Below, in pieces: positions 835 to 26,929 of a stretch of 28,011 nt of DNA. The notes under the pieces are model-generated. The model did no database searches, was not told the DNA's origin, and was given only the letters and a program-made list of their open reading frames with translations. Made by a program: the position numbers and the translations under genes. Position 1 is the stretch's first letter; each line of letters begins with the position of its first letter. The DNA comes from a virus, in the IMG/VR virus record IMGVR_UViG_3300035698_014019, positions 1 through 28,011 of that record; one strand, given 5' to 3'.

Positions 835-890
835 AGATAACGTTTAAACTAACCGACTTTTTCGGGCCACGATGAAACGGTTTGTTAAGT
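835..890 (-). other. attC-like site 1 (weak)
   Basis: Read on the minus strand it starts ACTTAAC, a perfect RYYYAAC box, and ends CGTTATCT. The ends pair as TAAC/GTTA. An inner stem AACCG/CGGTT (851-855 with 878-882) continues through TTTT/GAAA with small bulges to a short loop. Its CGTTATCT end matches the same end of the much better site at 1442-1503. The stop codon of a small ORF (885-1031) lies inside the R'' box, as is common in integron cassettes. The fold is weaker than a textbook attC, so this may be a degenerate or coincidental site. Confidence 0.35.
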
Positions 891-1031
891 GTGCCAATAA
901 GCATGGCCCATGCGTCCTCGGGTCGTCGGATTTGCGGTATGGCGCACCATGTCCGATTTCGCCCGCATCCTATCCACTGCCCCGGCATTAGCCATACTTT
1001 CTACAGCCGGACCTCCATCACTTATCAGCAC
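885..1031 (-). CDS. Possible cassette microprotein (48 aa, or 36 aa from ATG 995)
   Basis: This open frame lies between two attC-like sites. GTG 1031 follows AGGAGA closely; an internal ATG at 995 gives a 36-residue form. The product is basic and low in hydrophobics, with segments MANAGAVDRMRAKSDMV and TTRGRMGHAYWHT. The stretch is clearly more GC-rich than its neighbours, a sign of different origin. The stop codon is inside attC-like site 1. No family is recognised and expression is uncertain; the segment could also be a non-coding cassette. Confidence 0.3.
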   Translation of the reverse strand: MLISDGGPAVESMANAGAVDRMRAKSDMVRHTANPTTRGRMGHAYWHT

Positions 1032-1035
1032 ACTC

Positions 1036-1088
1036 TCCTAACATTTAAATCAGCGGCTTTTTTAACCAGCGTAAACAGTTTGTTAAAA
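1036..1088 (-). other. attC-like site 2 (weak)
   Basis: A 53-bp segment with ends TAAC (1039-1042) and GTTA (1082-1085). Inside, TTTA/TAAA and GCGG/CC(A)GC can pair, with A1068 bulged on the right arm, the same arm that carries both bulges in site 3. The outer spacer is unequal (1 nt against 6 nt). The TAA of the 58-residue ORF at 1083-1259 lies within the R'' box. The stem is AT-rich and imperfect, so the call rests on its position in a series with site 3. Confidence 0.35.
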
Positions 1089-1259
1089 TGGGGTGTCGCT
1101 ATCTGACGGCTCCGGTATATCATCAAATGCCATATCAACAAGCTCTTCCATATCTTTAATCGGTTCTTTATCGCTAACGGTTAAATCAGCGACCTGTCGG
1201 CTGAATTGATTGGTTATCAATTTTATACATCCAGTACCATTTCCATTTTTTATCTCCAC
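1083..1259 (-). CDS. 58-aa ORF ending in an SSB-like acidic C-terminal tail
   Basis: The frame opens at GTG 1259, directly after the TAA of the 53-residue ORF and in the same reading frame. It ends MAFDDIPEPSDSDTPF. The last part copies the form of the bacterial single-strand DNA-binding protein tip: a Pro/Asp/Ser-rich acidic linker and a final acidic-x-Pro-Phe that docks onto SSB-interacting proteins. No OB fold can fit in 58 residues, so this is not a complete SSB. It could be a tail-only mimic, or the end of an ssb broken by a frameshift or stop. The ribosome binding site for the GTG is weak; an alternative ATG 8 nt after GTGGAG encodes only seven codons in another frame. The stop lies in attC-like site 2. 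Confidence 0.45.
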   Translation of the reverse strand: MEIKNGNGTGCIKLITNQFSRQVADLTVSDKEPIKDMEELVDMAFDDIPEPSDSDTPF

Positions 1260-1421
1260 TTAAGTCAAACTATCACTGCATATCGATTGCAAGGCTTTGA
1301 CCTTTTCAAAGATTATTTGTTCAAGCGTAGAGGGCTCGTAAGAATCATAAAACCTGATTTTTAGTAAAGAGATTACATCCATTTTTCTATACTTCTCAAG
1401 CTGTTCTTCTCTTTCGCTCAT
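1260..1421 (-). CDS. Small hypothetical protein (53 aa)
   Basis: I chose ATG 1421 because GAGGTG precedes it at normal spacing; an upstream ATG at 1469 would place the start inside the attC stem. The product begins MSEREEQLEKYRKMDVISLL, is charged and probably helical, and ends SICSDSLT. No family is recognised. It is the first ORF after attC site 3, separated from it by about 20 bp, as cassette genes usually are. Its TAA is followed at once, in frame, by the 58-residue ORF. Confidence 0.5.
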   Translation of the reverse strand: MSEREEQLEKYRKMDVISLLKIRFYDSYEPSTLEQIIFEKVKALQSICSDSLT

Positions 1422-1441
1422 TCCCACACCTCTTTTTTTAA

Positions 1442-1503
1442 AGATAACGATTAAGCTCACCAGCGCCATGCTTTACGGCGTCTGGTGAAGCGCCTTGTTA
1501 TGC
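1442..1503 (-). other. attC-like integron recombination site 3 (strong fold)
   Basis: On the minus strand it reads GCATAACAAGGCGCTTCACC, then the rest of the hairpin, and ends CTTAATCGTTATCT. Arms 1455-1467 and 1477-1491 form a 13-bp stem with exactly two unpaired bases, T1481 and A1488, both on the same arm and six pairs apart. Outside the stem is an unpaired spacer (GATTAA against GCCTT), then ATAAC/GTTAT ends. Extrahelical bases on one arm, an unpaired central spacer and AAC/GTT end boxes are the structural hallmarks by which IntI recognises folded attC. The bulge side gives the same orientation as the genes. No integrase gene lies in the window. Confidence 0.65.
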
Positions 1504-1554: not shown

Positions 1555-2796
1555 TTATCCTAACAGCTTTCCTGTAATCATATCAACGCCGATGTCCTTG
1601 CTCTCGTCCTTTATCCACATCTTGAAGATCTTATGCTTCGGATTGAACATCTTAACATTGTATTCTTCAATCCAATCTTGAAACTCCAGAAATCGCAAAT
1701 AACTCTTGACCAACCTCTCGGGATTCTTCAATGGCAATTTTCTTTCCACATATTTACCAGAACCATTCCTACCTGAACGATTCAAGGACTTGTTGAACTC
1801 GACCAGGTCAGAGACATTGAAAACCAGATCACGGGAAATCTCAAAATCATACTCATCCGTTATCAGTTTTGTCAGCTTGGAATATTTGTCTCTGAATTTA
1901 TTTTGATTTGATTCAGGAATATCATTCAAGACCTGAAAGAAAAACGACTTGCCAGTATTGGAATTATACAGCAATGAAGGAAGGTCTCTTGGCAGTTTGC
2001 TTTTATCGGGAGGCCAATATCCCTCAAGAAACAGTTTTTCCAAACTTTCCAATCCTTCAAGAAGCTTTGATCTTGGCCAACGTTTAGTTTTCCATGATTG
2101 GGGAATTTTACATCTCTTCCACCAATCTTCATCCAACACCTTATTCTGCCAAAAGGTGCCCCGCACTAATTGGAAAAAATATTGCCTTGCTTTCTTGTAA
2201 GTTTTGGTATTGGGAGAATTATGAGATTGTGTACTTTGAAAGGAATTCCATTTTTCAAGATATATGGATTTTGGCGATTCTGAGGAATCGCTTAAAGATT
2301 CTTTAGAATCTTTTTTACTATTAGTCTTTAAAGCATTTAATCTATTAGTACTTAAAGCATTTGCCCTATGATTTCCCACACTGTGGCTTTTCCCATACTC
2401 TGGGAAACCATGAGGGTGGGATTCTATCTTTTCCTTATCCCACCAAATAAACTTCACAAGGATGTAATGGCCTGTAATTCTGTTTGTATTTTTATCTCTT
2501 GCAGTAACATTATCTATCAATCCAAGTTTTATCAGTTGTTGTTTTCTATCTCGAACTTTTTGATCACTCCATTTAAGCCCCTTGGCGGTATAGCCAGTAG
2601 TTGATTTTATTTTCTTTGTTTGTTGCCATTTGGCGGTATAATAATAAAACCAATATAATGCCATAAGATCAGATGGATGATCTTGCTTTAAAATCAGATC
2701 GCTTGTCACTTTGCTAATTACTATGGGCTCGTCTTTGATATCAATAAGAATAGAATCTTCCTCTATAATCGAACTTCTTCTTTTGTATTTTGACAT
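1555..2796 (-). CDS. Winged-helix phage replication protein (initiator-like, 413 aa)
   Basis: Residues about 35-120 look like a winged-helix DNA-binding domain: DLMALYWFYYYTAKWQQTKK, a recognition-helix stretch KVRDRKQQLIKLGLIDNV, and a wing ending ITGHYILVKFIWW. A Ser/Asn/Lys-rich linker follows (about 150-190). The C-terminal half is rich in aromatic and basic residues (WWKRCKIPQSWKTKRWP). This layout is usual in phage replication initiators and helicase loaders of the O/DnaD type. The gene lies between primase and DnaB-like helicase genes. GGAGG upstream of ATG 2796 is rather far (about 15 nt). The stop is some 50 bp before attC-like site 3. The wHTH is seen directly; the initiator role is inferred. 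Confidence 0.6.
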   Translation of the reverse strand: MSKYKRRSSIIEEDSILIDIKDEPIVISKVTSDLILKQDHPSDLMALYWFYYYTAKWQQTKKIKSTTGYTAKGLKWSDQKVRDRKQQLIKLGLIDNVTARDKNTNRITGHYILVKFIWWDKEKIESHPHGFPEYGKSHSVGNHRANALSTNRLNALKTNSKKDSKESLSDSSESPKSIYLEKWNSFQSTQSHNSPNTKTYKKARQYFFQLVRGTFWQNKVLDEDWWKRCKIPQSWKTKRWPRSKLLEGLESLEKLFLEGYWPPDKSKLPRDLPSLLYNSNTGKSFFFQVLNDIPESNQNKFRDKYSKLTKLITDEYDFEISRDLVFNVSDLVEFNKSLNRSGRNGSGKYVERKLPLKNPERLVKSYLRFLEFQDWIEEYNVKMFNPKHKIFKMWIKDESKDIGVDMITGKLLG

Positions 2797-2821
2797 TCTT
2801 TTTTTTTGACAACCTCCAATA

Positions 2822-4105
2822 TTAAAAAATTACTTCAGGATATTCTTTTGGTTTGACTTTCAAGTTTGGTTTGAAATAAACTTTTACATTATCTTGTCTT
2901 GCTTTGTTAAGTATTTTTTCTACCCACTCCCATTTTGGTTGCCCTTCATCCATCCCTGAACTCTTGCTCCTTCCTCCGATAATAATCCAGTCAATCATTT
3001 TTAAGGAATTGAAGGTTAACTCTTCTTGTAATGGTTCACACGAAAAGAACTTTACAGGGGCTTTGAATTTTGAAAATATGTTTTCTGCGTCTTTGATTCT
3101 GGACTGAACATCTATGGTCGTTCCAACCCAGGCTGTTTTTGGCCAGTCAATTTTGGTTAATCGCTTTGGATTCTTGGTCAAGAACAGATAATTCCATTGA
3201 GAATTTTCATCACAAACACTTAATATTTCATCAATCCATTCCTGGGGAACCCAGTCCCCAAACAAGTCTGCCATTGAACAAACAAAGGCGTTGTTTATTC
3301 CTGGCTCGTCTTTTCTTGATTCGGGAATCTTTGTACTTTTAGGGGCTGTAAGTCTTTTGGGCCTGAAGGTTGGCTCGAATTTTTCCTTATAGAATCTGTT
3401 GGCAATGTCCCTTGCATAGCAATACTTGCATCCATGTTCGCATCCGGTGACGGGATTCCACGTCCATTTTGCCCATTCTATATTTTCATTTGTTGCATTG
3501 AACTTGCTTTCCTTGTTCAGTTCATCTTCTATTTTCTGTTTCACTTCCTTTGCCAGCTTCCAGACAGCGTCAATGGACAGATCGTCATTCTTAATCCCCT
3601 CGATATCATCCGCATCCGCATATCCCAGGATGGTTCTCATCTTGTTCACGTTTGTGATCCCTGTTCCTATCAGCTTGGCGGTCTTTTCTGCTGAAGGTTT
3701 GTTATCGGTATTTAAATTTAAATACCGATTTTTCTTATAGTCCTCACTCTTATAATCTCCACCATAAGCCCCCACCCTATCCAATGCCTCAAACAATCGG
3801 AACTTGTCGCCAGCCGTCACCCTTCGGCCTTTGTTCTTGTTGCGCTTGATTGAGTATTTAAGAGCGGCATCTTCACCATCAAATTCTAACAGATTAACAG
3901 GAATGTCTTTTAGCTTGACTTCCTTGGCCGCCTCTAACCTTGTATGCCCGTCAATCAGGAACCCTTTTTCTTTCCATATCAGAATAGGTTCATTTTGGTC
4001 GTATCCGTTTTGCCGGATGTCTTCCAGCACCTCTTTGTAATCTTCATCGTAAATTCTAAAAAGGTTTTTAAAAGGGTCTTGAATTTTAATCTTTTTAATG
4101 TCCAT
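2822..4105 (-). CDS. ParB-like domain fused to DUF5131 (Gp37/Gp68) radical SAM-like protein
   Basis: Residues 1 to about 110 are a ParB/sulfiredoxin-fold domain with the LIDGHTRLEAAKE motif (DGHTR). After a helical linker, the second half begins WAKWTWNPVTGCEHGCKYCY, giving C222-x3-C226-x2-C229, the canonical 4Fe-4S ligand pattern of radical SAM enzymes. LFLTKNPKRL and IDWIIIGGRS are typical of the phage Gp37/Gp68 (DUF5131) family. Members are expected to be iron-sulfur enzymes related to spore photoproduct lyase; their substrate is not settled. The start overlaps the end of the tcmP-like gene by 11 bp. ParB domains occur in phage DNA-modification systems, so a nucleic-acid substrate is a reasonable inference, not shown. 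Confidence 0.85.
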   Translation of the reverse strand: MDIKKIKIQDPFKNLFRIYDEDYKEVLEDIRQNGYDQNEPILIWKEKGFLIDGHTRLEAAKEVKLKDIPVNLLEFDGEDAALKYSIKRNKNKGRRVTAGDKFRLFEALDRVGAYGGDYKSEDYKKNRYLNLNTDNKPSAEKTAKLIGTGITNVNKMRTILGYADADDIEGIKNDDLSIDAVWKLAKEVKQKIEDELNKESKFNATNENIEWAKWTWNPVTGCEHGCKYCYARDIANRFYKEKFEPTFRPKRLTAPKSTKIPESRKDEPGINNAFVCSMADLFGDWVPQEWIDEILSVCDENSQWNYLFLTKNPKRLTKIDWPKTAWVGTTIDVQSRIKDAENIFSKFKAPVKFFSCEPLQEELTFNSLKMIDWIIIGGRSKSSGMDEGQPKWEWVEKILNKARQDNVKVYFKPNLKVKPKEYPEVIF

Positions 4106-4907
4106 TTTTCTCTCCTTTTTTCATAAGCAAATTAATTATCTTTTGTCCTTTCTGTGAGTTAACAGGAACAAATTTATATTTTAATTTATTCAGATTATAA
4201 TTATCAAAATTGGTACAGAACAACATAATAAATTTCCATTTATTTGCTGTTGAAGGTTCTTCCTTGATAACGTCTCTAATATATACTGAGTTTTTATAAA
4301 GGCAAATTTGATCAATAAGTTGTGAAAGATTCTTATTGTACTTTTTAAATCCTTTTACTTTTTTAACGCCCATATTTCTTAGTAATGTTACAGAACTGAA
4401 GTTTATTAATACATCTAAATATTTTTGTTTTTTAGTGACTTCTATTATGCTATTCCAAAGGCTCTGAGTATAGCCATTCATATCGCAATATAATAATCCA
4501 TATTTTGCTGAAGATTTTGATAAAAGCGAAGGAAGAATATTTTCACTTTTATCATATTTTAAGGATACATTTATCCTAAAATAATCTTTATCATCAAGAA
4601 AAACTATTCTGGAAATATATTTTTTGAGATTTTTTTTCAGAAGAGAAAATGATTTCTTGTCTTTTTCTATAAAGGTTGCTTCAAAATCTAATCCTTCATG
4701 AAGTAAAAGTTTATCAAGAAAAATTATTGGACTTGTCAAATTGTCAATAGCATCTCCGGCAGTTACATCAAAAAGATGAAATGTTTTATCGAGCCAATCT
4801 TTTTTGCTATGTTTATTAAAAACACATTCTGTTTTATAAAGCAAGTCTTTAAAAAGAAGCTGTAAATCTTGTTGTTTAAAAGGAGTTATTTTTGATCTTC
4901 CAACTGA
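4095..4907 (-). CDS. tcmP: Three-Cys-motif partner protein (TcmP-like)
   Basis: The 270-residue product has a Rossmann methyltransferase-like core. LFDVTAGDAI stands where TcmP proteins carry a DLFAGPG loop, ATFIEKDKKSFSLLKKNL is the acidic second strand plus helix, and KYGLLYCDMNGY stands at the usual DP.G position. TcmP (TIGR04474) is named for its frequent pairing with the three-Cys DUF5131 family, and here the two genes overlap. Start ATG 4907 has GGGAGG at workable spacing; ATG 4949 lies inside the upstream repeat region and lacks a good site. The gene is more AT-rich and Lys-rich than its neighbours. The biochemical role is unknown; methylation or another S-adenosylmethionine use is inferred from the fold. 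Confidence 0.75.
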   Translation of the reverse strand, partial: SVGRSKITPFKQQDLQLLFKDLLYKTECVFNKHSKKDWLDKTFHLFDVTAGDAIDNLTSPIIFLDKLLLHEGLDFEATFIEKDKKSFSLLKKNLKKYISRIVFLDDKDYFRINVSLKYDKSENILPSLLSKSSAKYGLLYCDMNGYTQSLWNSIIEVTKKQKYLDVLINFSSVTLLRNMGVKKVKGFKKYNKNLSQLIDQICLYKNSVYIRDVIKEEPSTANKWKFIMLFCTNFDNYNLNKLKYKFVPVNSQKGQKIINLLMKKGEKNGH

Positions 4908-4932
4908 CATTTTTTGATAACCTCCCAGGTGT

Positions 4933-5036
4933 TGGCAACGATTGAGCATTGCAAAGGTTAATAAGAAGGGAAAGGGTATGCGAGGGATACACCGCTATCC
5001 CCCACACCTATTGTTTAAGACCTTGTTGCAACAAGG
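4933..5036 (-). repeat. Inverted-repeat region: central hairpin, perfect 16-bp palindrome, possible attC-like site
   Basis: This gene-free stretch contains GGGATA-CACCGC-TATCCC (4984-5001, a 6-bp hairpin) and the perfect palindrome CCTTGTTGCAACAAGG (5021-5036). On the minus strand the segment from GCAACAAGGTC to CAATCGTTGCC resembles the edges of the attC-like site at 1442-1503 (AACAAGG and AATCGTT), and AAGGT tracts inside can partly pair. The resemblance is limited and the stem poor. It may be a relic cassette boundary or simply an operator or terminator region between the primase and tcmP-like genes. Confidence 0.3.
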
Positions 5037-5132
5037 CACCCACCCACCGGACAAGAATAGGGAAAGGGAAGTAAGCAATGAAGAAAGGATTAGACATCGC
5101 CCGCTCCCCGATTCCCTATCCTTATATAATCT

Positions 5133-5161
5133 ATTATATATTATTTTTTAATGTTTTAAAA
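5133..5161 (-). promoter_or_regulatory. Possible leftward promoter ahead of tcmP-like and ParB-radical SAM genes
   Basis: A perfect TATAAT occupies 5138-5133 on the minus strand inside a very AT-rich tract (5110-5190) downstream of the primase stop. The -35 region at 17-bp spacing is only TTTTAA-like. The tract could give a separate transcript for the genes to its left. Confidence 0.3.
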
Positions 5162-5195
5162 AATTATTTTTAATATTTTTTTATTTATAAGAATT

Positions 5196-6110
5196 TCAAT
5201 AGTTTAGTAGCTCCTTCCGTAGTTCTTTCGCCTCCTTATTTGGCAAATCGGCAGGATCTCCGAAGTCAGGAGTCAACAGTTCAACATCCTTGCCAAGTCC
5301 ATCAATCAACATGCCAAGCTTGTCTGCCTGTCTTTGTGCCTGATCTTCTGCATCATAAAAAATAAAAACCTTGTCTAATTTCTCAATCATTATCCTGACC
5401 TGACTATTTGTAAATTCAATCCCAAAAGTCCCGACGGTTCCAGGGCCGAATTTCCAAACGTCGAACACTCCCTCTACGACAATGGCAACCCTGTTCCTGA
5501 TTTTGTCAATGCCGTACAAGGTATGTTTGTGGTGAACAATCTCATCCTTTCTTTCACAAGCTTGATATTTTGCAAACTGTTTGTCGGTTATGTCACGACC
5601 CTGAAAACTGACCATTTTCTGATTCAGGAATATCGGGGCGATGATTCTGAACTTGTAATCTCCGACATTTCCTGTCCCTTTGAGTTTCCACTCCTGCTCT
5701 AATTTATCTGGATCAAAGTTCCTTTTTCTAAGATATTTTCTATGAGAAACACTAAGCTGACGACTATCTGGCGGAAAAGACATATCAATGTATGGGTAAG
5801 AGCGAGACAATTGATTCTTGTCTATGTCTCGCTTGTCTAACAGGGTATTTCCATACTTATTTATATAGGTTTTTGCGGCTGGATAGTTGCATTCCAACAA
5901 TCGCATGATAATATCAGGTAAAGACCGCCAACCACATCTCCAACAGTTGTAATATTCTCCTTGAATATTGAAGCCGCCATGCCAACCTTCATGCCCTGTA
6001 CAGAATGGGCACTTGATCTGAACCCATCCTGCTCGGGCATGCTTGCCTCGATCCGTATTCGGAATTCCAAATTGATCAAGAAATTGTTTTGGATCGAATA
6101 TCTTTTCCAT
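5196..6110 (-). CDS. DnaG-type DNA primase (304 aa)
   Basis: The N-terminus carries a zinc-binding domain with C34PFC37 and C56WRC59, between which lie GHEGWHGGF and an aromatic strand. This is the CHC2-type module that senses template sequence. The second half is a TOPRIM catalytic domain: AIVVEGVFDVWKFG holds the invariant Glu, and KVFIFYDAEDQAQRQADKLG the Asp-rich metal site. The family makes RNA primers at the fork. At 304 residues it is shorter than bacterial DnaG and lacks the helicase-binding C-domain, as is common in phage primases. ATG 6110 lies 5 nt past the stop of the upstream gene and has only a weak ribosome binding site, so coupling is likely. Confidence 0.88.
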   Translation of the reverse strand: MEKIFDPKQFLDQFGIPNTDRGKHARAGWVQIKCPFCTGHEGWHGGFNIQGEYYNCWRCGWRSLPDIIMRLLECNYPAAKTYINKYGNTLLDKRDIDKNQLSRSYPYIDMSFPPDSRQLSVSHRKYLRKRNFDPDKLEQEWKLKGTGNVGDYKFRIIAPIFLNQKMVSFQGRDITDKQFAKYQACERKDEIVHHKHTLYGIDKIRNRVAIVVEGVFDVWKFGPGTVGTFGIEFTNSQVRIMIEKLDKVFIFYDAEDQAQRQADKLGMLIDGLGKDVELLTPDFGDPADLPNKEAKELRKELLNY

Positions 6111-6115
6111 TTGTT

Positions 6116-6379
6116 TTACTCGTTAAACTGATCAGCCCAATCTAAAATATCATTCCATGCATATTTTAAAAGTAAATATACTGGCAACACTCCTCTTTTA
6201 TCAAAACCTACTTTTTCTGCCGCTTGATCACTCGCTTCTTCTAAGGATATTGTATAGCAATCCTCGAAGTTTGCAATCTTTGTTGTGTCCTCTAAATCTA
6301 ATTTTTCTGCCTTCTTTAAATCATAGGATTCCTCCTTGATCTTTGCCGCGAGTTTTACTGCTCTTGCCAATAATTCCAT
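6116..6379 (-). CDS. Hypothetical protein (87 aa)
   Basis: ATG 6379 follows AGGAG with 6-nt spacing, so the longer frame from 6460 is rejected. The product is acidic and mostly helical (MELLARAVKLAAKIKEES), with a C-terminus LPVYLLLKYAWNDILDWADQ. No known family. It sits 2 nt after the stop of the preceding gene and 5 nt before the primase start, so it is co-translated with the primase. Confidence 0.65.
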   Translation of the reverse strand: MELLARAVKLAAKIKEESYDLKKAEKLDLEDTTKIANFEDCYTISLEEASDQAAEKVGFDKRGVLPVYLLLKYAWNDILDWADQFNE

Positions 6380-6380
6380 C

Positions 6381-6581
6381 TCATTCTCCTTTTTTTCTTT
6401 TATCTTTTGCGCAATACATAACAATACCAGCCTCAGCATCTCCATTGTTTGGAAGCACAATTCTTGTATTGGTTACGCATTCTTGACATACTTTCAGGCT
6501 TGGCATTTCATGATAATTATATCTCCAAGCGTCTCCTGTACTTGACAATGTCAAAACTATCAAAAATACTATTTCATTCAT
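6381..6581 (-). CDS. Small exported or membrane-anchored Cys protein (66 aa)
   Basis: Start ATG 6581 has AAAGGAG upstream. The first 15 residues, MNEIVFLIVLTLSST, form a short hydrophobic segment consistent with a signal peptide or anchor. The rest has VCQECV and a further Cys (IVMYCAKD), so a disulfide or metal site is possible. No family recognised. Stop and next start are within 5 nt. Confidence 0.6.
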   Translation of the reverse strand: MNEIVFLIVLTLSSTGDAWRYNYHEMPSLKVCQECVTNTRIVLPNNGDAEAGIVMYCAKDKRKKGE

Positions 6582-6583
6582 TT

Positions 6584-6754
6584 TTATTCTCCTTTCTTTA
6601 AAAGTTGGTTTCTCTGTTCGCACCTTATGCATCCGTTGTCCCTTCTTTCTCCCCTGGCAATGCAAGCGTCCAATCTTATTCTTTGCCCATGCTTATCGCA
6701 CCAAAAAATCATGGAATAGATTGTCGGAGGCTTTCTCCTTTTGTAAACTGTCAT
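6584..6754 (-). CDS. Cys-rich microprotein (56 aa), zinc-finger-like
   Basis: ATG 6754 is preceded by GAAAGGAGAAATAA. The 56-residue product is basic, begins MTVYKRRKPPTIYSMIFWCD and has Cys at 19, 32, 42 and 45, the last pair as CIRC. This spacing could bind one zinc. The stop lies just before the ribosome binding site of the next gene. No family recognised. Confidence 0.6.
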   Translation of the reverse strand: MTVYKRRKPPTIYSMIFWCDKHGQRIRLDACIARGERRDNGCIRCEQRNQLLKKGE

Positions 6755-6949
6755 TTATTTCTCCTTTCTTTTGTATTTCTTTTTCGCTTCAAAGTCACCA
6801 TCCCAAGGAATGGTATTTGTTGCTTTTATTACGACTTGAACACAGCTTCCGCAAAGCAATGAATCAACCCCTGCCTGATCATGCTTGTAAACAGTTCCGT
6901 CGTGATGAATTGTTCTTTCTCTCTTGAAACATCTTATGCAGTCTGTCAT
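6755..6949 (-). CDS. Cys-rich microprotein (64 aa), two CxxC pairs
   Basis: The ATG at 6949 follows AAGGAGGGAG. Pairs CIRC near the start and CGSC about 30 residues later make a zinc-ribbon arrangement, with a His-rich stretch between (TIHHDGTVYKHDQ). A Lys-rich tail ends the protein. It abuts the next microprotein gene directly. Its function is unknown; the form suits nucleic-acid or protein binding. Confidence 0.65.
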   Translation of the reverse strand: MTDCIRCFKRERTIHHDGTVYKHDQAGVDSLLCGSCVQVVIKATNTIPWDGDFEAKKKYKRKEK

Positions 6950-6994
6950 TGTTTTTCTCCCTCCTTTCTATTATATAATATATTTACTAATCCC

Positions 6995-7156
6995 TTAAAT
7001 TTTTATTTTCTCCCTCCTTCTGATCTTTCTCAAAATCTGATTGATTGTTTTATGACAGGTCTTGCAAAGATAATCTCCTTCGGATTCCAGTCCCTTGACC
7101 GCTTTCCATAATTCAGGTTTGCATTTGTGACAACTAACAATTGGAATTGTTGACAT
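6995..7156 (-). CDS. Cys-rich microprotein (53 aa), zinc-ribbon-like
   Basis: ATG 7156 follows GAAAGGAG. The sequence has SCHKCKPELW and, 20 residues on, YLCKTCHKTINQILRKIRRR: two CxxC knuckles followed by a basic helix, a plausible nucleic-acid-binding zinc ribbon. No named family. Confidence 0.6.
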   Translation of the reverse strand: MSTIPIVSCHKCKPELWKAVKGLESEGDYLCKTCHKTINQILRKIRRREKIKI

Positions 7157-7176
7157 AATTTTTTCTCCTTTCTGTT

Positions 7177-7374
7177 TTAAATTTCTGTAATTTTGTCATT
7201 GGTAGCTTTTTTTATTTCACTTAAAAAATATTTATTTGTACCTTTATTTAATCCCCTTATACTCTCAACTGCCACAATCATATCTCCACAATGTGGCGTA
7301 TCCCCTATCCAACTAACCCTAACCTTTTTATTTGTATAAGGCTCTTTTACAATTTGTCCAACTGTAATCTCCAT
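7177..7374 (-). CDS. Small hypothetical protein (65 aa), SH3-like barrel possible
   Basis: ATG 7374 is preceded by GAAAGGAG. Alternating hydrophobic strands (VGQIVKEPYTNKKVRVSWIG, then DMIVAVESIRG) suggest a small beta-barrel. No family assigned. It lies between the SNF2-like helicase gene and the zinc microproteins. Confidence 0.6.
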   Translation of the reverse strand: MEITVGQIVKEPYTNKKVRVSWIGDTPHCGDMIVAVESIRGLNKGTNKYFLSEIKKATNDKITEI

Positions 7375-7389
7375 TTCCTAACTCCTTTC

Positions 7390-9360
7390 TTATTTATTTA
7401 GCATTCTGTTCAAGAGTTCGGACAACAAAGACGAACCCTCAACCGCCTTGCCGTCAAGAACCTTTTCCAACACCTTTCGCTTCTTGTCAATCAACTCCGC
7501 GATCTCCTCTTCTATTGTATCATGGGCAATCAAATAGTATGCATTGACTGAATCCGCTTCCTGTCCTATTCTGTGAACTCTATCCTCTGCTTGATCATGC
7601 TCACCAGGCTGCCAGCCCAATTCCACAAAGCAAGTTGAACTGGCAGCAGTCAGAGTTATTCCAATTCCAGCCGCCTTGATATTTCCCACGAACAATTTGA
7701 TCTTGTTATTTGTTTGAAACTGGTCAACCGCTTCCTGTTTGGCCTTTTGATTGTTCCTGCCATCAAGTCTTACGGAAATTCCCTTGAACTCATCCATTAA
7801 GATATCGACCGTTTTATGATGAGTACAAAAGACAACCAGCTTCTCACCTGATTCGATAAAGTTCTGAATCCAGGAAATAATGCCATTCATCTTGCCCGCA
7901 ATGGTCAATTGTTTAAGGCCTTCGATCTCTGCCAAAGTCGATGCTTGTGCAGCACTTGCGGCCTTCTCATTTCCAAACTCCTTTCTGACCCAAGAAATGA
8001 AATCGACTTCTGCCTTATCGTATTCCTTTTTGTTATCGATCTCCAAAGGAATGACGATTCTAACCTTGGCGGGGAGATCTTTCATTACTTCTGACTTCTT
8101 GCGCCTGATCATTATTGACTTTGTGACTATTTCATGAAGCTTTTCAATATTGGATGCCCCTGAAAAATCCCACCCAAATCCATTGTGTTTGGCCCCACAA
8201 TATTCATGTGCGTACTTCCAGAAAGAAGGAAATCGCTCTGGCATGATCATGTTGAGACAATTGAAGAACTCAATTGGTCTGTTGACAATCGGCGTCCCTG
8301 ACAAAGCAATGATATTTTTTGTTCTTCTTGCCAAAGATCGTACTGCCTTGGTTCTCTGGGCTTTGTTGTTCTTTGTAAAGTGAACCTCGTCCATCACCAC
8401 TGTCTTATATTTAATAGATAACAGTTCCTTCTTTCTTGCGCTGACAATATCATAATTGATAATGGTAATGTCTGTAAGTCCTGCTCCGCCATTCGACTTG
8501 CCTGATAGGATCTGAACCGATAGATCAGGACACCACATCTTGCATTCCCTTTCCCAATTTAATTTGATTGAGGCGGGGACAATAACAAGTGCTGGCAAAG
8601 AAGTTTCCTTGTTAAGTTGTATCCATGCAAGGGCCTGTGCGGTCTTGCCTAATCCCATCTCATCCCCAATCAATGCCCTGCCCTTTCTGCTCTCTACGAA
8701 CTCAACGCCTCTTGTCTGAAACGGATACAAATTCATTCCCAAACCAGGAATATTGACAATCTTCTTTTCATCCTCATACTGCATTTTGTCATACCATTCT
8801 TGTAATTCAGAAGAAATGTCAAACTTCCATTCCCTTAATGCCTCAAAACTGTCAAGAGCAAGTGGACAAGTCCAAGGCTTGTCGTCAAGTTCGGGATTCC
8901 ATTTTCTGCCTGTCAATGTCTTGACATGACCTAAAGTTTCTCTGAACCTTGAATCGCCTCTTGGGAACTGAAATTTGATCAGGATTTTATTGTCAAGTAA
9001 CCCCGTCCATTTCAAAGTCTCGATCTCTTTTTTATCTACTGCTGCTTTTTTAATGGGCAAGGATTCAATATCAAGATGCTCCAGCTGTCCGCTATATTTC
9101 TCGATCTTTCTGCGGGCAAAGTCAATCTGTTTGGATGTTAAGAGTCCTCTCTTATTATAGAAGTCTGCAATATCGGAAAGGACTCCTGCATCATGTGAAT
9201 TAAACCCTCTGCCATTCTTATAATGAGTGTGTTTCATCATCTGCTCGTCCGCTTCCTGCTCTCTGTAAAGGGCTTGAAGCGCGCCGACTACAAACTTGTC
9301 GTCTTTGAGGCGTTCTGTTATGTCCGGTCGCTCGCTTTGGGCTTTATCGGATGTTTTCAT
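7390..9360 (-). CDS. SNF2-family DNA translocase/helicase with HARP-like N-terminal region (656 aa)
   Basis: Helicase motifs appear in order. LIGDEMGLGKTAQAL is motif I, VMDEVH is the DExH box, ALSGTPIVNRPIEFFN is motif III, and GWQPGEHDQAEDRVHRIGQ is motif VI with its arginine finger. These define the SWI2/SNF2 branch of SF2. The region before the ATPase (RGDSRFRETLGHVKTLTGRKWN to the next WT/W positions) resembles the HARP domain of SMARCAL1-like annealing helicases. ATP-driven movement on DNA is expected, plausibly for fork remodelling. I prefer ATG 9360, after a GGGGGAAAA site 13 nt past the preceding stop; an upstream ATG 9405 overlaps that gene. Confidence 0.9.
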   Translation of the reverse strand: MKTSDKAQSERPDITERLKDDKFVVGALQALYREQEADEQMMKHTHYKNGRGFNSHDAGVLSDIADFYNKRGLLTSKQIDFARRKIEKYSGQLEHLDIESLPIKKAAVDKKEIETLKWTGLLDNKILIKFQFPRGDSRFRETLGHVKTLTGRKWNPELDDKPWTCPLALDSFEALREWKFDISSELQEWYDKMQYEDEKKIVNIPGLGMNLYPFQTRGVEFVESRKGRALIGDEMGLGKTAQALAWIQLNKETSLPALVIVPASIKLNWERECKMWCPDLSVQILSGKSNGGAGLTDITIINYDIVSARKKELLSIKYKTVVMDEVHFTKNNKAQRTKAVRSLARRTKNIIALSGTPIVNRPIEFFNCLNMIMPERFPSFWKYAHEYCGAKHNGFGWDFSGASNIEKLHEIVTKSIMIRRKKSEVMKDLPAKVRIVIPLEIDNKKEYDKAEVDFISWVRKEFGNEKAASAAQASTLAEIEGLKQLTIAGKMNGIISWIQNFIESGEKLVVFCTHHKTVDILMDEFKGISVRLDGRNNQKAKQEAVDQFQTNNKIKLFVGNIKAAGIGITLTAASSTCFVELGWQPGEHDQAEDRVHRIGQEADSVNAYYLIAHDTIEEEIAELIDKKRKVLEKVLDGKAVEGSSLLSELLNRMLNK

Positions 9361-9374
9361 TTTTCCCCCTTTTT

Positions 9375-9773
9375 TTATTCCTTTCTTTGAACTCTTACTA
9401 TCCATGTTATTGCCTCTTCCAATGTAACATATCTTTTGATCACATAGAATTTATGTTGTTCCCCAACAAAAACCTTATTATAACAACTGTCTAAAAAATA
9501 CCAAGCGTCATCAATTTTAGCTTGAGCTTGGCAATGTTTATATTTTTTATCCACTATCTTTCCGAGAGCGATACGAATTTCATATCCATTTCTTCTTGCG
9601 GTCATTGCCTGGAAAACAGCCCTTGGTACACAACTTGCTGTCCATTTGACAGTAGTCGCATCATACCAAAGACTTTTCTGGTGAGCACATCCAGAGGAAA
9701 AATAAAAAATAAAAATCAGCACTAATATTCCACAACAAACAAGAATAACATTAAGGCATTTTTTTCTTATCAT
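9375..9773 (-). CDS. Lipoprotein with transglutaminase-like catalytic triad (132 aa)
   Basis: The N-terminus is a lipoprotein signal: basic start, hydrophobic core LVCCGILVLIFIFYF, then lipobox SSGC with Cys29. The mature part has TASC48VPRAVFQAMTARRNGYEIRIALGK, H80 in KHCQAQAK and D95 in AWYFLDS. This Cys-His-Asp order and spacing match transglutaminase-like (papain-fold) proteins, where Cys heads a helix and His and Asp lie on adjacent strands. An envelope-anchored enzyme made early could act in superinfection exclusion or host envelope remodelling, but that is inference. It is followed closely by the SNF2 gene. Confidence 0.65.
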   Translation of the reverse strand: MIRKKCLNVILVCCGILVLIFIFYFSSGCAHQKSLWYDATTVKWTASCVPRAVFQAMTARRNGYEIRIALGKIVDKKYKHCQAQAKIDDAWYFLDSCYNKVFVGEQHKFYVIKRYVTLEEAITWIVRVQRKE

Positions 9774-12481: not shown

Positions 12482-12805
12482 TCAAATTCCTCCTATTCCA
12501 CTTTTTTTATTATTAGGCCTACATATAATTTGACACATTTTATTTTGAGACTGTTGATCAAATGGCGGAAGTTCCTGATCTCCCCAATTATATAGGCTAT
12601 CCATTGCTGAGTCAAAACTTTTAATATCGGTAACATTACTAAAAGCCTTAACAACAACACTCAATAAATCTTTCTCTCCTTCAGAAACCGGCAATGCTTC
12701 AAGTTTTTTAGCTATTATTTCAGCTAATTTAGATGAAGAAATTTTTTGTCTCTCTGCCTTTTTCCACCCCTCTTTAATATCAATTTCATATTTCCAGTTT
12801 GCCAT
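12482..12805 (-). CDS. Duplicated 107-aa protein, copy 2
   Basis: This copy is nearly identical to the product of 15842-16165: same length, over 85% identical residues by eye, with identical C-terminal half NWGDQELPPFDQQSQ through KSGIGG. The N-terminus NWKYEIDIKEGWKKAERQ is shared. Two Cys (CQIIC) near the end may bind metal. ATG 12805 follows GAGGAGGG. No family recognised. The copies flank the AAA+ ATPase gene and the genes between it and DUF1257. Confidence 0.75.
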   Translation of the reverse strand: MANWKYEIDIKEGWKKAERQKISSSKLAEIIAKKLEALPVSEGEKDLLSVVVKAFSNVTDIKSFDSAMDSLYNWGDQELPPFDQQSQNKMCQIICRPNNKKSGIGGI

Positions 12806-15153: not shown

Positions 15154-15372
15154 TTATCTATACAAAGTAACTATATCTCCGAACTCCTTTTCAAATATCT
15201 GAATAAGATTCTCGTAATCGCCACTTGCCATCCTTGTGGAGATGTCGTCAAAGTTCTTGTCGAGTTGTTTGCAAAGGGCTTTGGTCATGCCTAACAAATA
15301 GAAGGCGTTGCCGTTAGGGCCTGTCAGGTCGATCTCAATTCCCGCTTCCATTTTTTCTTTGCTTATTATCAT
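15154..15372 (-). CDS. Small hypothetical protein (72 aa), IDLTGPNGNAFYLLG type
   Basis: ATG 15372 follows AAGAAAGGAG. The motif IEIDLTGPNGNAFYLLGMTK is a recurring pattern in small phage and plasmid proteins of unknown function (a strand, then a Gly-Asn-Ala turn and a helix). The rest is helical and ends at an operon gap of 17 nt. I cannot assign a role. Confidence 0.65.
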   Translation of the reverse strand: MIISKEKMEAGIEIDLTGPNGNAFYLLGMTKALCKQLDKNFDDISTRMASGDYENLIQIFEKEFGDIVTLYR

Positions 15373-15841: not shown

Positions 15842-16165
15842 TTAGTTTCCTCCTATTCCACTTTTTTTATTATTAGGTCTGCATATAATCTGACACATTT
15901 TATTTTGAGACTGTTGATCAAATGGAGGGAGTTCCTGATCTCCCCAATTATATAAGCTATCCATTGCTGAGTCAAAACTTTCAATGTCGGTAACCTCATT
16001 AAAAGCCTTAACAACAACACTCAATAAATCTTTCTCTTCTTCAGAAACCGGTAATGCTTCAAGTTTTTTAGCAAGTATGGTTGCTAATTCAAATGAAGAG
16101 ATTTTTTGTCTCTCTGCCTTTTTCCACCCCTCTTTAATATCAATTTTATATTTCCAGTTTGACAT
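15842..16165 (-). CDS. Duplicated 107-aa protein, copy 1
   Basis: Same length as copy 2 (12482-12805) when started at ATG 16165, which has GGAGGG 7 nt upstream; a tandem ATG sits at 16168. Nucleotide identity in the 3' half is about 95% by eye, including the stop context, with changes mostly at scattered positions. The shared core KAERQKISS, LPVSE-EKDLLSVVVKAF and MDSLYNWGDQ suggests a small helical protein. Located between DUF2997 and DUF1257 genes. Confidence 0.75.
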   Translation of the reverse strand: MSNWKYKIDIKEGWKKAERQKISSFELATILAKKLEALPVSEEEKDLLSVVVKAFNEVTDIESFDSAMDSLYNWGDQELPPFDQQSQNKMCQIICRPNNKKSGIGGN

Positions 16166-16182
16166 CATCTTACCCTCCTTTC

Positions 16183-16401
16183 TTATCCACAAAGTTTGGC
16201 GCCATCGACTCCCATCCTCGCTTCTCTTTTCAAAGAAGCGTGATTGGTCAGATACCATTCTGTCTTCTTTTTAGTATCCGTCACCTTGCCCAATGCCTCT
16301 TCCATGAATGCGCTGGCCTGCTGGCATACCGGGCCTTTAAAGCCATCCCCTGAAACTCTGGCCTCTCCGTCAGGGCCAACATCTACAAATAGCTTTGGCA
16401 T
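16183..16401 (-). CDS. DUF2997-like protein (72 aa)
   Basis: The sequence PKLFVDVGPDGEARVSGDGF with KGPVCQQASAFMEEALGKVT matches the short DUF2997 pattern: two beta strands with GPDG, then a GxxC helix and EALG. Residues 48-72 form an extra tail containing a Cys. ATG 16401 has AAGAAAGGAG. It is the first clear gene after the regulatory region, heading the DUF2997-DUF1257-Ycf46 operon. Confidence 0.72.
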   Translation of the reverse strand: MPKLFVDVGPDGEARVSGDGFKGPVCQQASAFMEEALGKVTDTKKKTEWYLTNHASLKREARMGVDGAKLCG

Positions 16402-19980: not shown

Positions 19981-22900
19981 TTATATAGGTGTGTTGCCCT
20001 GATCGAAATCGTCATGGTAATAAATATCCTCGTCATATTCCAAAAGCCCGAGCTTGAAAGTCGTGTCAACCGTCCTGCTCAAATTCAGCATCCTGTATTT
20101 CAAAGGCTCCCCGGTTGACTTGCCAATGGCGAAAACGTCATATTCGGCCAGACCGGAAAGCGAGTGAATACGAAGATCGGATATCTCAGCGGACATGGCA
20201 TTGCCACTGCCTGTATTATAACTCTGCACTCCATATAAATATCTAAAATCCGTTTTTGCAGTCTGTAAAGTTAGACTTAATGTATCGAGAAGATTTGATC
20301 TTGCAGAATCAGAATAAATAAGACAATAAATTGTTCCATATGTCCCAACACTTTCGTCTCTTTTCATTATTAAATAATAAATGGTATTAAGGGAACAAAC
20401 ATAATCATCTGCCGTCGAGCCTCCAGGATCTATTTCGTATAATCGAATTTTATAAGCTCCTCCAGCATCACGATACAAATATAAAAACTCCATATCCGGA
20501 CCAGCAACATCACCGATATGATTACAAAAACTACAGACAGCAATCCTACAATTAAGATCAGAAGCGGTTATCTTAACAGTCACCTGGATTTCATAATTCC
20601 CATTAAAATAATCAACACCAAAGTCATAGTAAATATAAGCATCCTCATTTTGAGTAAGTCCATTAACAGTAATTTTATTTGTAATTACAGCAAATCTGGC
20701 ATTAGGATCAACCTCGGTATAATCAGTATAATCTTCTCTCTTGACTTCCACCGTGTCCGTGGCCGATGCCTCGGCCTCCAGATATCGTTCAACCAGGGTA
20801 TCGTTTGCTTTTTGCAGCCATAGTTTGTAATTGTCAGAGGCGGCCAACGGGCCAACTTCCTGGTCCAGTACAATCGTAAAGCTGTCGGAGCTTCCCTGGT
20901 CAGCCAGGAGGCCGCCCCAGGATACCTTGTCACTGGAATGCTCGACTATGCACATGTCGCCCAGCTCGGTGGCGATGGCGTTTACATCCTCCTCAAAAGA
21001 CGCGGCTCGATTGAGCATCTCATTCATCTGCATACGAAATATGCCAAATCTTGTCGCCACATCCTGATCTGTGCAACCCCATAGCTTCAAGGTTTCTATT
21101 TGCGGAACTCGTGTCAGACTGTCATAGTCGGAACTGAGTATCGGTATCTTATCCTGTACGTAATTCAGCTTTCTTGCATTGTTGAATTCAATGTTCAACA
21201 CATCCGGCACGGAATTACGGTCAATAAATTCCAGCTTGAAGGTGTCCTTGAAATGAGTACCTGACGAGTACACATGGCTATGGGTATCCTCCGGCTTTTC
21301 ATACACCACATTCACATATCTACCATTCCTGATTATTTTGCCTCTGCCGATCTGCTCAAACTTCTGGAGCGCCGTGGTGACAGCCATCGAGCTGTCCAGG
21401 ACGCCATTGCATGACACTCGTGTATGACCGATGGACAGGTTGGATATCTCACAGGCCCCTGTTATCCCAGCTCCATTATTACTACTTTGAACGCCATATA
21501 AATAACGGAAGTCTTTTTTGTTGGTATGAAGGGTTAAGATTAAGGTATCTAAAAGAGTATTCCTTGTTGAATCGAAATACACATAACAATATAATGTACC
21601 GTAAGTACCTACTGATTCGTCTCTCTTGACGGTTAAGTAATAGGTGGTGCCGACTACAACATGGCTGTACCAATTAGTATATTCCGTTCCGCCATCAAGT
21701 TCTTTAAGGCCAAGATGATAATCTGCTCCGTTCCTGTAAAAAAGCAAATGTAACTCATCTCCGTTGGCAGCTTCAATTCCTTTTACATCATCTATAAGAT
21801 TGGCCGTCCCCCAAATAACGAAAGCCATCTGATCGTCTATTGCCGTTACTTTAACGGCAACCTGATGCTCAAAGTCACTATCAAAATAATCCGGGCCAAA
21901 GTCCCTGTAAATGTATGCGTCTTCATTCCTGGTTAATCCGGTGACGGTTATCTTCTTTTCTATGACTGTGAATCGGGCATTCGGGTCGGTCTCGACATAT
22001 TTTGTGAACTTTTCATCCGCATAGGTAGTTCCGTCATTATTGTCCGCCCATGCCTGCCAGTTCGCCTCGTTGATCAGTTCGGTTGTGCCGACTATAGGCA
22101 GTTTCTGGCATCCGTACCTGTCATGGGTTATTAGATCGTAAGAACCCCAGGCAGAATTGGAGGATTCGACCTCCTTTACAAATTCCAGGTTGGTTATATC
22201 ACAGGAGCAGGTAACACCGGAGGCGTTGTTCCAGGACTGCACCGCGTACAGATATCTAAGATCCTTTTTCGACGTGTGCAGTGTCAGCGTCAGGGTGTCA
22301 AAAAGGGCTGACCTGGCTTCATCACTGTAAATATAACAATACAGCGTGCCATATGTGCCGACCGCCTCATCCCGCTTGATGGTCAGATAATATTTAGTAT
22401 TCAGCGCCCCGGTGTAGCTGTCGCTGTAGAGCGTGCCAGCGTCCAGCTCGTAGAGCATAATCTTATAGGCCGCGCCGGTCCGGTTTAGCACCACTGCCAG
22501 CTCGTCTCCTGAGGCGGTATCTATACCATTGAAATCATCAACCAGGTTTGCCAGGCCGAACACGATTGTATTATCGCCGTCCGCCATAGCGGAAAACTCT
22601 ATCTCCATGTACGCCAAAAAATCCCCATCAAAGCAGTCTTGTCCCATATCCTTGTAAATATAGGCATCTTCATTTTGGGTGAGCCCTGTAACCTCAATTC
22701 GATAATCCAGGACGGAAGTAAATCGGCCATTCGGGTCCACCTTGGTGTAGTCCGTGAAATCACGATGGGCCGGAAACCAGTCAGGCACGGCAATAGTGCC
22801 GCGATCCCAGAGGGCAGTAATATTAGGGGTTGTACTATTTAACTGCTCAGACGCCTGAATAGAAATTGCAAGGAGGGAAAGGCCGGGATATTTTAATTCC

Positions 22901-24981: not shown

Positions 24982-25381
24982 TTACATTTCCTTTATAAAT
25001 ATAGTAACCCATCACCCTTTTTCTCCATGCGGGCGAGGATATATGATCGACTTTCACTCCGGTTGCTGATCTTGTATGAATGAAACTATCTCCGCCGATC
25101 GCAACACCAACATGGGACGCCCAACCGGGAACAGAGTAAGACAATACAATCAGGCAACCCTGTTTTATTTTCTTAATCGGTTCCCATTCAGGTTCTGCCT
25201 TATAAATGGCATCATGAATATTTTTCGTATCATTGCAGGATATTCCATTTCCATAGTCAGGGATGATAGTTCCGGCCCTTCTCATGACTTCCATCATCAA
25301 ACCGGAACAATCATAATCGTCCGGCCCTCTCCCGCCATCCTTGAACGGCTTATGAATAAGATCGTTGACAGGAATCGGCAT
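24974..25381 (-). CDS. NlpC/P60 tail peptidase (lambda K-like, 135 aa)
   Basis: DDYDC25SGLMMEVMRRAG carries the catalytic Cys, WASH90VGVAIGGDSFIH102 the His residues, all in NlpC/P60 order. In lambda-type tails this domain belongs to tail assembly protein K, thought to help local cell-wall cleavage during DNA entry. This version lacks the N-terminal JAB-type domain of lambda K. It overlaps the start of the J-like gene by 8 bp. Confidence 0.88.
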   Translation of the reverse strand: MPIPVNDLIHKPFKDGGRGPDDYDCSGLMMEVMRRAGTIIPDYGNGISCNDTKNIHDAIYKAEPEWEPIKKIKQGCLIVLSYSVPGWASHVGVAIGGDSFIHTRSATGVKVDHISSPAWRKRVMGYYIYKGNVSG

Positions 25382-25386
25382 AATTA

Positions 25387-25674
25387 TTACTCCGGTATTT
25401 TAGGTTCTTCAACAGGTTCAGTCAGAATGTCGTTGTCCCATTTCTCAAAATTTGCCTCGAACTTGATAAGTTCTTCATCCGTTTCTTCCAAAACTCTAAT
25501 CAGGGAACTACGCAAGACTTCCTGAGATAAGACAAGAACAAAATCTTTCCCTTGCGCCGGATTCAAAGGAGATAATTTTATTTGAGGCGTTTCTAATAGC
25601 CTTTCAAGATCCTTTTTAAACGAAGAATACTTATCATAGTTTGTGCAATAACTTTGTACTCTCTTTTTTTTCAT
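25387..25674 (-). CDS. Hypothetical protein in tail-tip operon (95 aa)
   Basis: ATG 25674 follows GGAGGG at good spacing; an upstream ATG 25698 overlaps the L-like gene. The product is helical and acidic at the end (LEETDEELIKFEANFEKWDN, EPVEEPKIPE). Its place between L- and K-like genes suggests a tail chaperone or small tail component. No family recognised. Confidence 0.55.
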   Translation of the reverse strand: MKKKRVQSYCTNYDKYSSFKKDLERLLETPQIKLSPLNPAQGKDFVLVLSQEVLRSSLIRVLEETDEELIKFEANFEKWDNDILTEPVEEPKIPE

Positions 25675-25684
25675 CTCTTCCCTC

Positions 25685-26929
25685 CTATGTACTTGCATAT
25701 ATCACAGCCGGATCATCCTCATTAAAACTCCCGCCGGGAATAGCAGGACAAGCTCCAAAATTAGCTTCGTTACTCCGTGCGATACAATCGTCCATAGTCC
25801 TGTTGCACTCGGTTTCCGAACCTGTATATCCGCATTCTCGACTCTTGAAATCATGCCGGCAAGATACCCTTGAAAAAGTATCCTTCGGAAAACGATTTGT
25901 AAAAAACGAATCCGGTATCAGTTCAAATGCCCCCCAAATATTGTCAAAGCTGACTTTGCCGACATCGAACCTTTCTTCGAGTACAGCATCTGTCAAAGTT
26001 AGATCGCCGTTATAGACGACCCTGATAATAACCTCCGAGCCGTACCCCCCATCGGCATCATTAATATAAGATTCCACTTGCCGGAGGACGTTAGCGACCC
26101 TGGCCTGCAAGGTCTGTATCGAGCCGTCCGAGGCCTGCTTCGACTCTGCCAGATCATAAGGAAACTTCTGCCAGCGGTTGTATATCTCTAAGTCGGATAT
26201 TTCGGCAGACATAGCTGCCGCATTGGCATCGTTAAATGATTGTGCTCCATATAGATACCGGAAGTTTTTTTTCGAGGTGTGGAGCGTAAGCGTCAGGGTA
26301 TCCAGGAGGATCTTACGGGCCGCGTCCGAGTAGATATAACAGTAAAGCGTGCCGTAATCCGTATCATCCGTCTCATCCCGTACAAATCGCAGATAATAGG
26401 TAGTATCGACAGAACAAACATAAACATCGGTATAAACCGTGCCACCATCAAGTTCATATAGATGAATATAATATACTCCTCCAACATTAGAAATCCTAAT
26501 ACTTAGAGCATCACCATTAGCAGTATCAATACCCTTAAAATCATTGACAAGATTTGTAAGTGAATCCAAAAATAAATATCCCCAAGCATCTGCCGCTGTA
26601 ATCTTCACGGTTGTCCATATCTCATAGCTGCCATCAAAGTATGTATTACCCACGCCAAAGTCATAATAGACATAGGCATCTTCATTACGGGTCAGGCCAT
26701 TGACCGTGATTTTATCCGCTATGACAGTGAATCGGGCGTTCGGGTCTGTCTCGGTGTAATCGGTGAGATCCTGCACCTCTTCAGGCCAGGAAATATCCTC
26801 TGTGTTTCGTACCAGCTTCAAGGGTTCATCCAGGGCGGGAACATCAATTTCCAGGAGAGGAAGCCAGGGCTCGTTGTCGAAGAGCTTGTTTTTTGCATTG
26901 GCTATTGAAGCTGCAAGTGTTAATGCCAT
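25685..26929 (-). CDS. Minor tail protein L homologue carrying an inserted domain (414 aa)
   Basis: ATG 26929 shares its A with the tape-measure TAA (TAATG). The N-terminus (LTLAASIANAKNKLFDNEPW, LLEIDVPALDEPLKLVRNTE) and the part from WQKFPYDLAESKQASDG onward are L-like. Five Cys near the C-terminus (SCRHDFKSRECGY, ECNRTMDDC, FGACPA) correspond to the iron-sulfur ligands of lambda L. Between ISWPE and WQKFPYDL, where L proteins normally have a short turn, a 195-residue domain of the J-gene repeat family is inserted. L joins the tape measure end to the tail tip. Confidence 0.82.
   Translation of the reverse strand: MALTLAASIANAKNKLFDNEPWLPLLEIDVPALDEPLKLVRNTEDISWPEEVQDLTDYTETDPNARFTVIADKITVNGLTRNEDAYVYYDFGVGNTYFDGSYEIWTTVKITAADAWGYLFLDSLTNLVNDFKGIDTANGDALSIRISNVGGVYYIHLYELDGGTVYTDVYVCSVDTTYYLRFVRDETDDTDYGTLYCYIYSDAARKILLDTLTLTLHTSKKNFRYLYGAQSFNDANAAAMSAEISDLEIYNRWQKFPYDLAESKQASDGSIQTLQARVANVLRQVESYINDADGGYGSEVIIRVVYNGDLTLTDAVLEERFDVGKVSFDNIWGAFELIPDSFFTNRFPKDTFSRVSCRHDFKSRECGYTGSETECNRTMDDCIARSNEANFGACPAIPGGSFNEDDPAVIYAST
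26183..26767 (-). repeat. Dispersed tail domain, copy D (in L-like protein)
   Basis: 195 residues from LTDYTETDPNARF to ISDLEI, with GLTRNEDAYVYYDFG, YYLRFVRDETDDTDYG, LDTLTLTLHTSKK and FRYLYGAQS. It is clearly homologous to copies A-C in the J-like protein. Confidence 0.85.

Follow-up and report, generated by a model that had tools for sequence, protein, structure and literature searches.

Clusters of attC sites that lack an integron integrase (CALINs) have been described in phages. Seventeen such phage clusters, some of them from isolates, are on record from Qi et al. 2023 (PMC9892861), and phage attC sites are proper IntI1 substrates: IntI1 recombined five of the six that were assayed, including sites of Tetrasphaera phage TJE1 (PMC9892861). 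It is the bottom strand of an attC, in folded form, that undergoes recombination (PMC11023631). An earlier note on the DNA considered here had recognized attC-like hairpins between phage replication genes and had held that no well-described phage case existed, a statement already out of date in view of the 2023 study.

The window that we analyzed, 28,011 bases long, is an entire IMG/VR record and represents a linear fragment of a phage, with nearly all genes on the - strand. It contains an attC array, flanked on one side by a replication-initiator gene and on the other by a gene for a DnaB-like helicase. We consider it very probable that this is an integrase-less cassette array (CALIN) inserted between the initiator and DnaB-helicase genes of a tailed phage. 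The array is a further case of the phage-borne CALIN, a kind already published with experiments in 2023; what is added here is a site inside the replication module and a comparison with empty junctions.

Other genes of the window, mostly on the - strand, encode tail proteins, an NlpC/P60 hydrolase, an AAA ATPase, an SNF2 helicase, a primase, and a ParB-DUF5131 protein. The last of these (within 2822-4949) joins a ParB-like domain to a DUF5131 protein of the radical-SAM type and is followed by a TcmP-like partner, both matching the PADLOC candidate defence pair PDC-M41A/B. Two near-alike copies of one small protein gene are found at 12482-12805 and 15842-16258, with about 3 kb between them, and a repeat of about 150 amino acids (DYTxxDPNARF...YIYxDFG...) can be seen by eye in both the 1666-aa and the 420-aa protein of the tail region, encoded at 19981-26947.

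Complete and degenerate attC sites

For the detection of attC sites we used two covariance models and a structural scanner. To train model R1 we took 49 attC sites that the scanner had picked out in bacterial integron loci, with the window and TJE1 left out; Ns stood in for the variable centre of every training site, which keeps the arms in register in the aligner. R1 proved specific: among 81 integron-bearing records it gave 106 matches, 105 of them on one strand, that of the cassette array. From these matches the wider model R2 was built. The strict scanner demands TAAC/GTTA boxes, spacers, and an L stem with one bulge in L''; in controls (80 bacterial integron loci collected via an IntI profile, the integron of phage M16-3, and the TJE1 CALIN) its sites were almost confined to cassette arrays. 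Applied to the whole window, the scanner found exactly two sites, attC1 (1442-1503) and attC2 (1172-1219), and none in 20 dinucleotide shuffles, both strands being scanned. With R1 and R2, respectively, attC1 scored 21.5 bits (E 0.005) and 36.0 bits (E 7e-7) and attC2 26.1 bits (E 4e-4) and 30.6 bits (E 1e-5), the E-values being rough because the calibration was short; the scanner scores were 18.5 and 14.0. The significant match of attC1 to an independently trained model, together with its fold, bears out the earlier proposal that 1442-1503 is a full attC. That proposal had overlooked attC2, the second complete site.

Both complete sites are read from the - strand, 270 bp apart, and their R1 and R2 matches span the full model length. 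Each has its inverted repeats (R''/R' and L''/L') in the attC order, with spacers left unpaired and a terminal loop, which in attC2 is very short; R' is GTTATCT at 1442-1448 in attC1 and GTTAGCG at 1172-1178 in attC2. When the + strand of attC1 is folded as single-stranded DNA, a six-pair R stem (five Watson-Crick pairs and one G-T pair) is followed by an unpaired spacer and then by a 13-bp stem (3+6+4) with a 9-nt loop; on the 3' arm of this stem, T1481 and A1488 are left without partners. Its energy is -13.1 kcal/mol (z -2.7), and 2 of 200 shuffles do better (0.3% in a second run). Because the unpaired bases sit on the 3' arm of the + strand, this strand is the bottom (recombinogenic-type) strand, and the attC points the same way as the phage genes. 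Strand polarity is concordant with gene orientation, as it is for attC2. The extrahelical L'' bases, by which that polarity is set, number two in attC1, and the one demanded by the scanner was found in both sites.

Intergenic hairpins are common in phages and the junction lies inside an operon, so the hairpins might instead be ordinary attenuators, terminators, or RNA-processing hairpins that are attC-like by chance. Rfam and tRNA scans of the window gave no match, and the lack of an Rfam family was counted in favor of such hairpins. The two matches to independent models, however, share a strand, a spacing, and the R''/L''/L'/R' order, and no structural site was found in the shuffles or in the rest of the window. 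The relatives of the window phage have no comparable match either, the best match to the attC model there being 13.6 bits. In addition, attC2 alone forms no stable terminator-like stem, yet it is the best match of R1 for attC sequence and structure. Given these data, ordinary phage hairpins are a very unlikely explanation.

The R1 ranking within the window continues, after attC2 and attC1, with a palindrome at 15289, then 835-890, then part of 1036-1088. The palindrome (15289-15319, 15.0 bits) was rejected as an attC, being a bare R-box palindrome without L arms. The other two, which we designate attC4 (835-890) and attC3 (1036-1088), both on the - strand, had been put forward in the earlier note as weaker sites; as complete attC sites they are not supported, since their L arms are unpaired and only the R boxes match. 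The R1 score of attC3 is 12.2 bits, for the subset 1060-1088 and R boxes only, and its R2 score of 8.7 bits is at noise level, as is that of attC4 (11.4 bits; R1 14.8 bits), where again the R boxes alone align. Folding of attC3 was not above shuffles, and neither site had L''/L' complementarity or a significant fold. Site attC4 keeps the R boxes and their spacing, with an R' (GTTATCT) like that of attC1 and an L stem that is not canonical. Site attC3 also has R boxes, but its L'/R' arm is almost the same as that of attC2 and its R''/L'' arm resembles that of attC4, and these arms are not complementary. Within the window, CGCTGATTTAANNGTTAG occurs only at 1174 (attC2) and 1038 (attC3), representing a shared right arm, and exact TTAACAAACNGTTT only at 875 (attC4) and 1073 (attC3), representing a shared left arm. 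On a different viral contig (L176), a normal attC ends in the right-arm sequence of attC2 and attC3; this is the one match to the attC2-type arm, out of nine in other viral contigs, that lies in a true attC array, the remaining eight being outside any detected attC. Sites 835-890 and 1036-1088 are probably decayed or chimeric attC relics.

Cassettes and their open reading frames

The R' boxes on the - strand, at 1448, 1178, 1042, and 841, delimit cassettes of approximately 110-270 bp; the orphan ORFs in them are tiny and are all oriented as phage transcription runs. ORF A (53 aa, 1260-1421, - strand) is the gene of the cassette that ends in attC2, its ATG following a good ribosome-binding site (GAGGTG). 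ORF C (48 aa, 885-1031, - strand) has a GTG start, with the first ATG at 995, and a TAA stop in the R'' of attC4; the surrounding segment 891-1035 is 57% GC compared to 40% in the window. The 22-aa candidate between them, ORF B (1083-1151, - strand), has its stop in the R'' of attC3 and is doubtful; a longer reading through attC2 would give 58 aa, and the cassette is possibly ORF-less. An arrangement of one ORF per cassette, oriented with the attC, is found for ORF A and ORF C and is doubtful for cassette B. Before attC1, a leading cassette fragment contains a possible 26-aa ORF (1457-1537, - strand) with an AAGGAG ribosome-binding site and a stop within attC1. All ORFs follow the attC orientation, as had been stated earlier. 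The accompanying statement that the ORFs stop inside the next site holds for ORF C (TAA at 885-887) and for the ORF ending at 1083; it does not hold for ORF A, whose stop at 1260 lies about 40 nt before 1172-1219.

After the R' of attC4 lies ORF D (71 aa, 605-820, - strand), the TGA of which overlaps the ATG of the helicase gene, so that translational coupling is probable. ORF D could be either a last cassette without an attC or a resident phage gene. At the other end of the array, a GTTAGGA box (1558-1564, - strand) spans the last codons of the initiator (CTG TTA GGA TAA), at the position where the initiators of relatives end, and this box is a candidate for the left insertion point of the array.

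No relative of the cassette ORFs or of ORF D was found in Pfam, PHROG, NCBIfam, or PADLOC, nor of ORFs A, C, and D among IMG/VR proteins. A nucleotide search with the array in phage and plasmid collections yielded short chance matches only, and no cassette of the array was recovered from a bacterial integron or another phage in the collections searched. Such a lack of relatives is usual for integron cassettes and says nothing on function.

The initiator-helicase junction

The left boundary gene of the array encodes a replication-initiator-like protein (1555-2796, - strand), with relatives 43-57% identical in phages of the same gene order. The right boundary gene (3-608, - strand), cut by the contig end, encodes a DnaB-like replicative helicase (PHROG 19, E 0.002) with phage relatives 52% identical. 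Relatives were taken from IMG/VR via initiator and helicase similarity. The two genes abut or overlap in six of them (L006, L007, L009, L012, L013, and L014), and in five others (L001, L002, L003, L011, and L015) unrelated ORFs lie between the initiator and the helicase. These small ORFs differ in each of the five phages. With the covariance model no attC was found at the junction in these relatives. Thus 835-1503 is absent, or replaced by other ORFs, between the same flanking genes, the comparison with related phages for which the earlier note had asked. With its varying ORFs the junction behaves as an accessory-gene spot in this lineage. Because relatives have it empty or with unrelated ORFs, we interpret the array as an insertion at a place where this lineage takes up foreign genes; the relatives, with helicase identities of 31-52%, are too distant to set its precise limits. 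The comparison with empty junctions speaks for the entry of cassette DNA into an operon of the phage.

A potential concern is that a fragment of a bacterial integron was joined to a phage contig during assembly, the record being a metagenome contig with the array near its end. Phage genes, however, are present on both flanks, the overlap of TGA and ATG ties ORF D to the helicase start, and the array lies exactly at a junction conserved in relatives; in addition, phage CALINs are known from isolates (PMC9892861). We regard an assembly artefact as very unlikely.

Neither an integron integrase (TIGR02249) nor a tyrosine recombinase (PF00589) was found across the whole 28-kb record, itself a genome fragment, so that an integrase in another part of the genome is conceivable. 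There is accordingly no intI beside the array as in a complete integron, and the array is classed as a CALIN because it has at least two clustered attC sites (attC1 and attC2) and no integron integrase nearby in the fragment. The 'reverse integron' layout of Treponema (PMC3607928) was rejected as an explanation, as it concerns the direction of intI. The earlier proposal of a CALIN in a phage replication module stands with respect to the covariance match and the absence of the region from relatives; two of the three sites that it named are degenerate.

The cassettes would derive from a bacterial integron. An integron integrase of the host, supplied in trans and possibly using an attG-like site, may have brought them in, or else illegitimate recombination did; both routes would fit. 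As the record has no integrase or tyrosine recombinase, the enzyme for any recombination would have to come in trans from the host. Phage promoters would drive transcription of the cassettes, and attC1 and attC2, folded in single-stranded form, could remain IntI substrates upon infection of a host that has an integron. Decay of attC3 and attC4 may have fixed the tail of the array.

Points against this interpretation are that only two of the four sites are complete and that the cassettes are short, without a recognizable product. The loss of L stems in two of four sites, the tiny cassettes lacking a product, and the integrase-less record would also fit an array that is real but dead: an inert remnant of one illegitimate or homologous recombination, no longer mobilized. 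We consider such a remnant quite possible, at somewhat below an even chance, a confidence that overlaps with that in the cassette array since the remnant opposes only its continued mobility, not its identity. The complete architecture of attC1 and attC2, including extrahelical bases, argues against a dead array, as do their R1 scores, which exceed those of the held-out attC sites of TJE1 (19.2, 17.8, and 17.4 bits), in which activity of such sites has been demonstrated. We weigh an array that may still be live and a dead remnant about equally.

That phages may ferry cassettes between integron-bearing hosts is plausible, though the cassette ORFs here, having no relatives in the collections searched, lend it no support. 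A more speculative model, which we think unlikely, is that genes are exchanged at the initiator-helicase junction of this lineage by the integron integrases of its hosts, with attC bottom strands exposed in phage single-stranded DNA during infection and cassettes entering or leaving the replication module; on this model the many attC arrays of viral contigs would form a pool of cassettes adapted to phages, and would not be stray DNA of bacteria.

Viral attC arrays and comparison with known systems

We also surveyed IMG/VR with a single consensus pattern for attC candidates, which gave 69 stretches (L100-L168) and 200 model matches. This suggests that attC arrays on viral contigs are commoner than the 17 reported in 2023, and the kind is probably common. 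An intI was found on two of the contigs (L119 and L150) and a partial intI on a third (L137), and these may be bacterial or prophage sequence; a terminase was found in 4 of 26 contigs checked for viral nature. By a coarse ORF test, the longest ORF between attC sites runs along the attC orientation in 32 of 34 callable bacterial intervals compared to 25 of 71 callable intervals on viral contigs (46 inverted). Tallied by hand per locus, with viral loci containing intI left out, the ratio of standard to inverted is about 15:1 for bacterial and 5:21 for viral loci (Fisher p about 3e-6). No description of this inverted-ORF bias in viral attC arrays was found in the open-access literature searched. 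The window array has the ordinary orientation, unlike most arrays on viral contigs.

Two of the surveyed contigs are of separate interest. In IMGVR_UViG_3300033388_001919 (L140), about 11 attC-like sites are spaced roughly 300-400 bp apart at 3330-6813, and most intervals contain one small ORF on the strand opposite to the attC; the array is flanked by RecE-like exonuclease, CsrA-like, and SSB-like genes on one side and by terminase genes on the other. In IMGVR_UViG_3300009134_000002 (L109), attC sites are scattered at 2451-9478 in a phage replication region with a DUF5131 gene and a Lin1244-like initiator; a 231-aa tyrosine recombinase (7600-8295) adjoins attC, and no full-length intI was found.

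These results indicate that phages can hold integron cassettes within core replication modules, and they point to a testable exchange of accessory genes between phages and integron-bearing hosts. With reference to attG cassette insertions, as represented where Loot et al. 2024 is cited (PMC12901181, PMC11023631), the GTTAGGA box of the window could be such an entry point; proof of the right junction would require a close empty relative. The array has in common with bacterial integron arrays and chromosomal CALINs the R''-L''-L'-R' attC, one small ORF per cassette, and stops in or near R''; it differs in residing in a phage, without intI and with no attI coming to light in the scans for attC and integrase. 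The closest counterparts are the CALINs of the virulent phages TJE1, P12002L, and PH101 (PMC9892861), likewise integrase-less attC clusters between phage genes with normal attC architecture, and in TJE1 and PH101 the genes are unidirectional as they are here. Compared to these, the window array has shorter cassettes, two degenerate sites among its four, and no methyltransferase cargo, and it lies between an initiator and a DnaB helicase gene, where an empty-site comparison is available.
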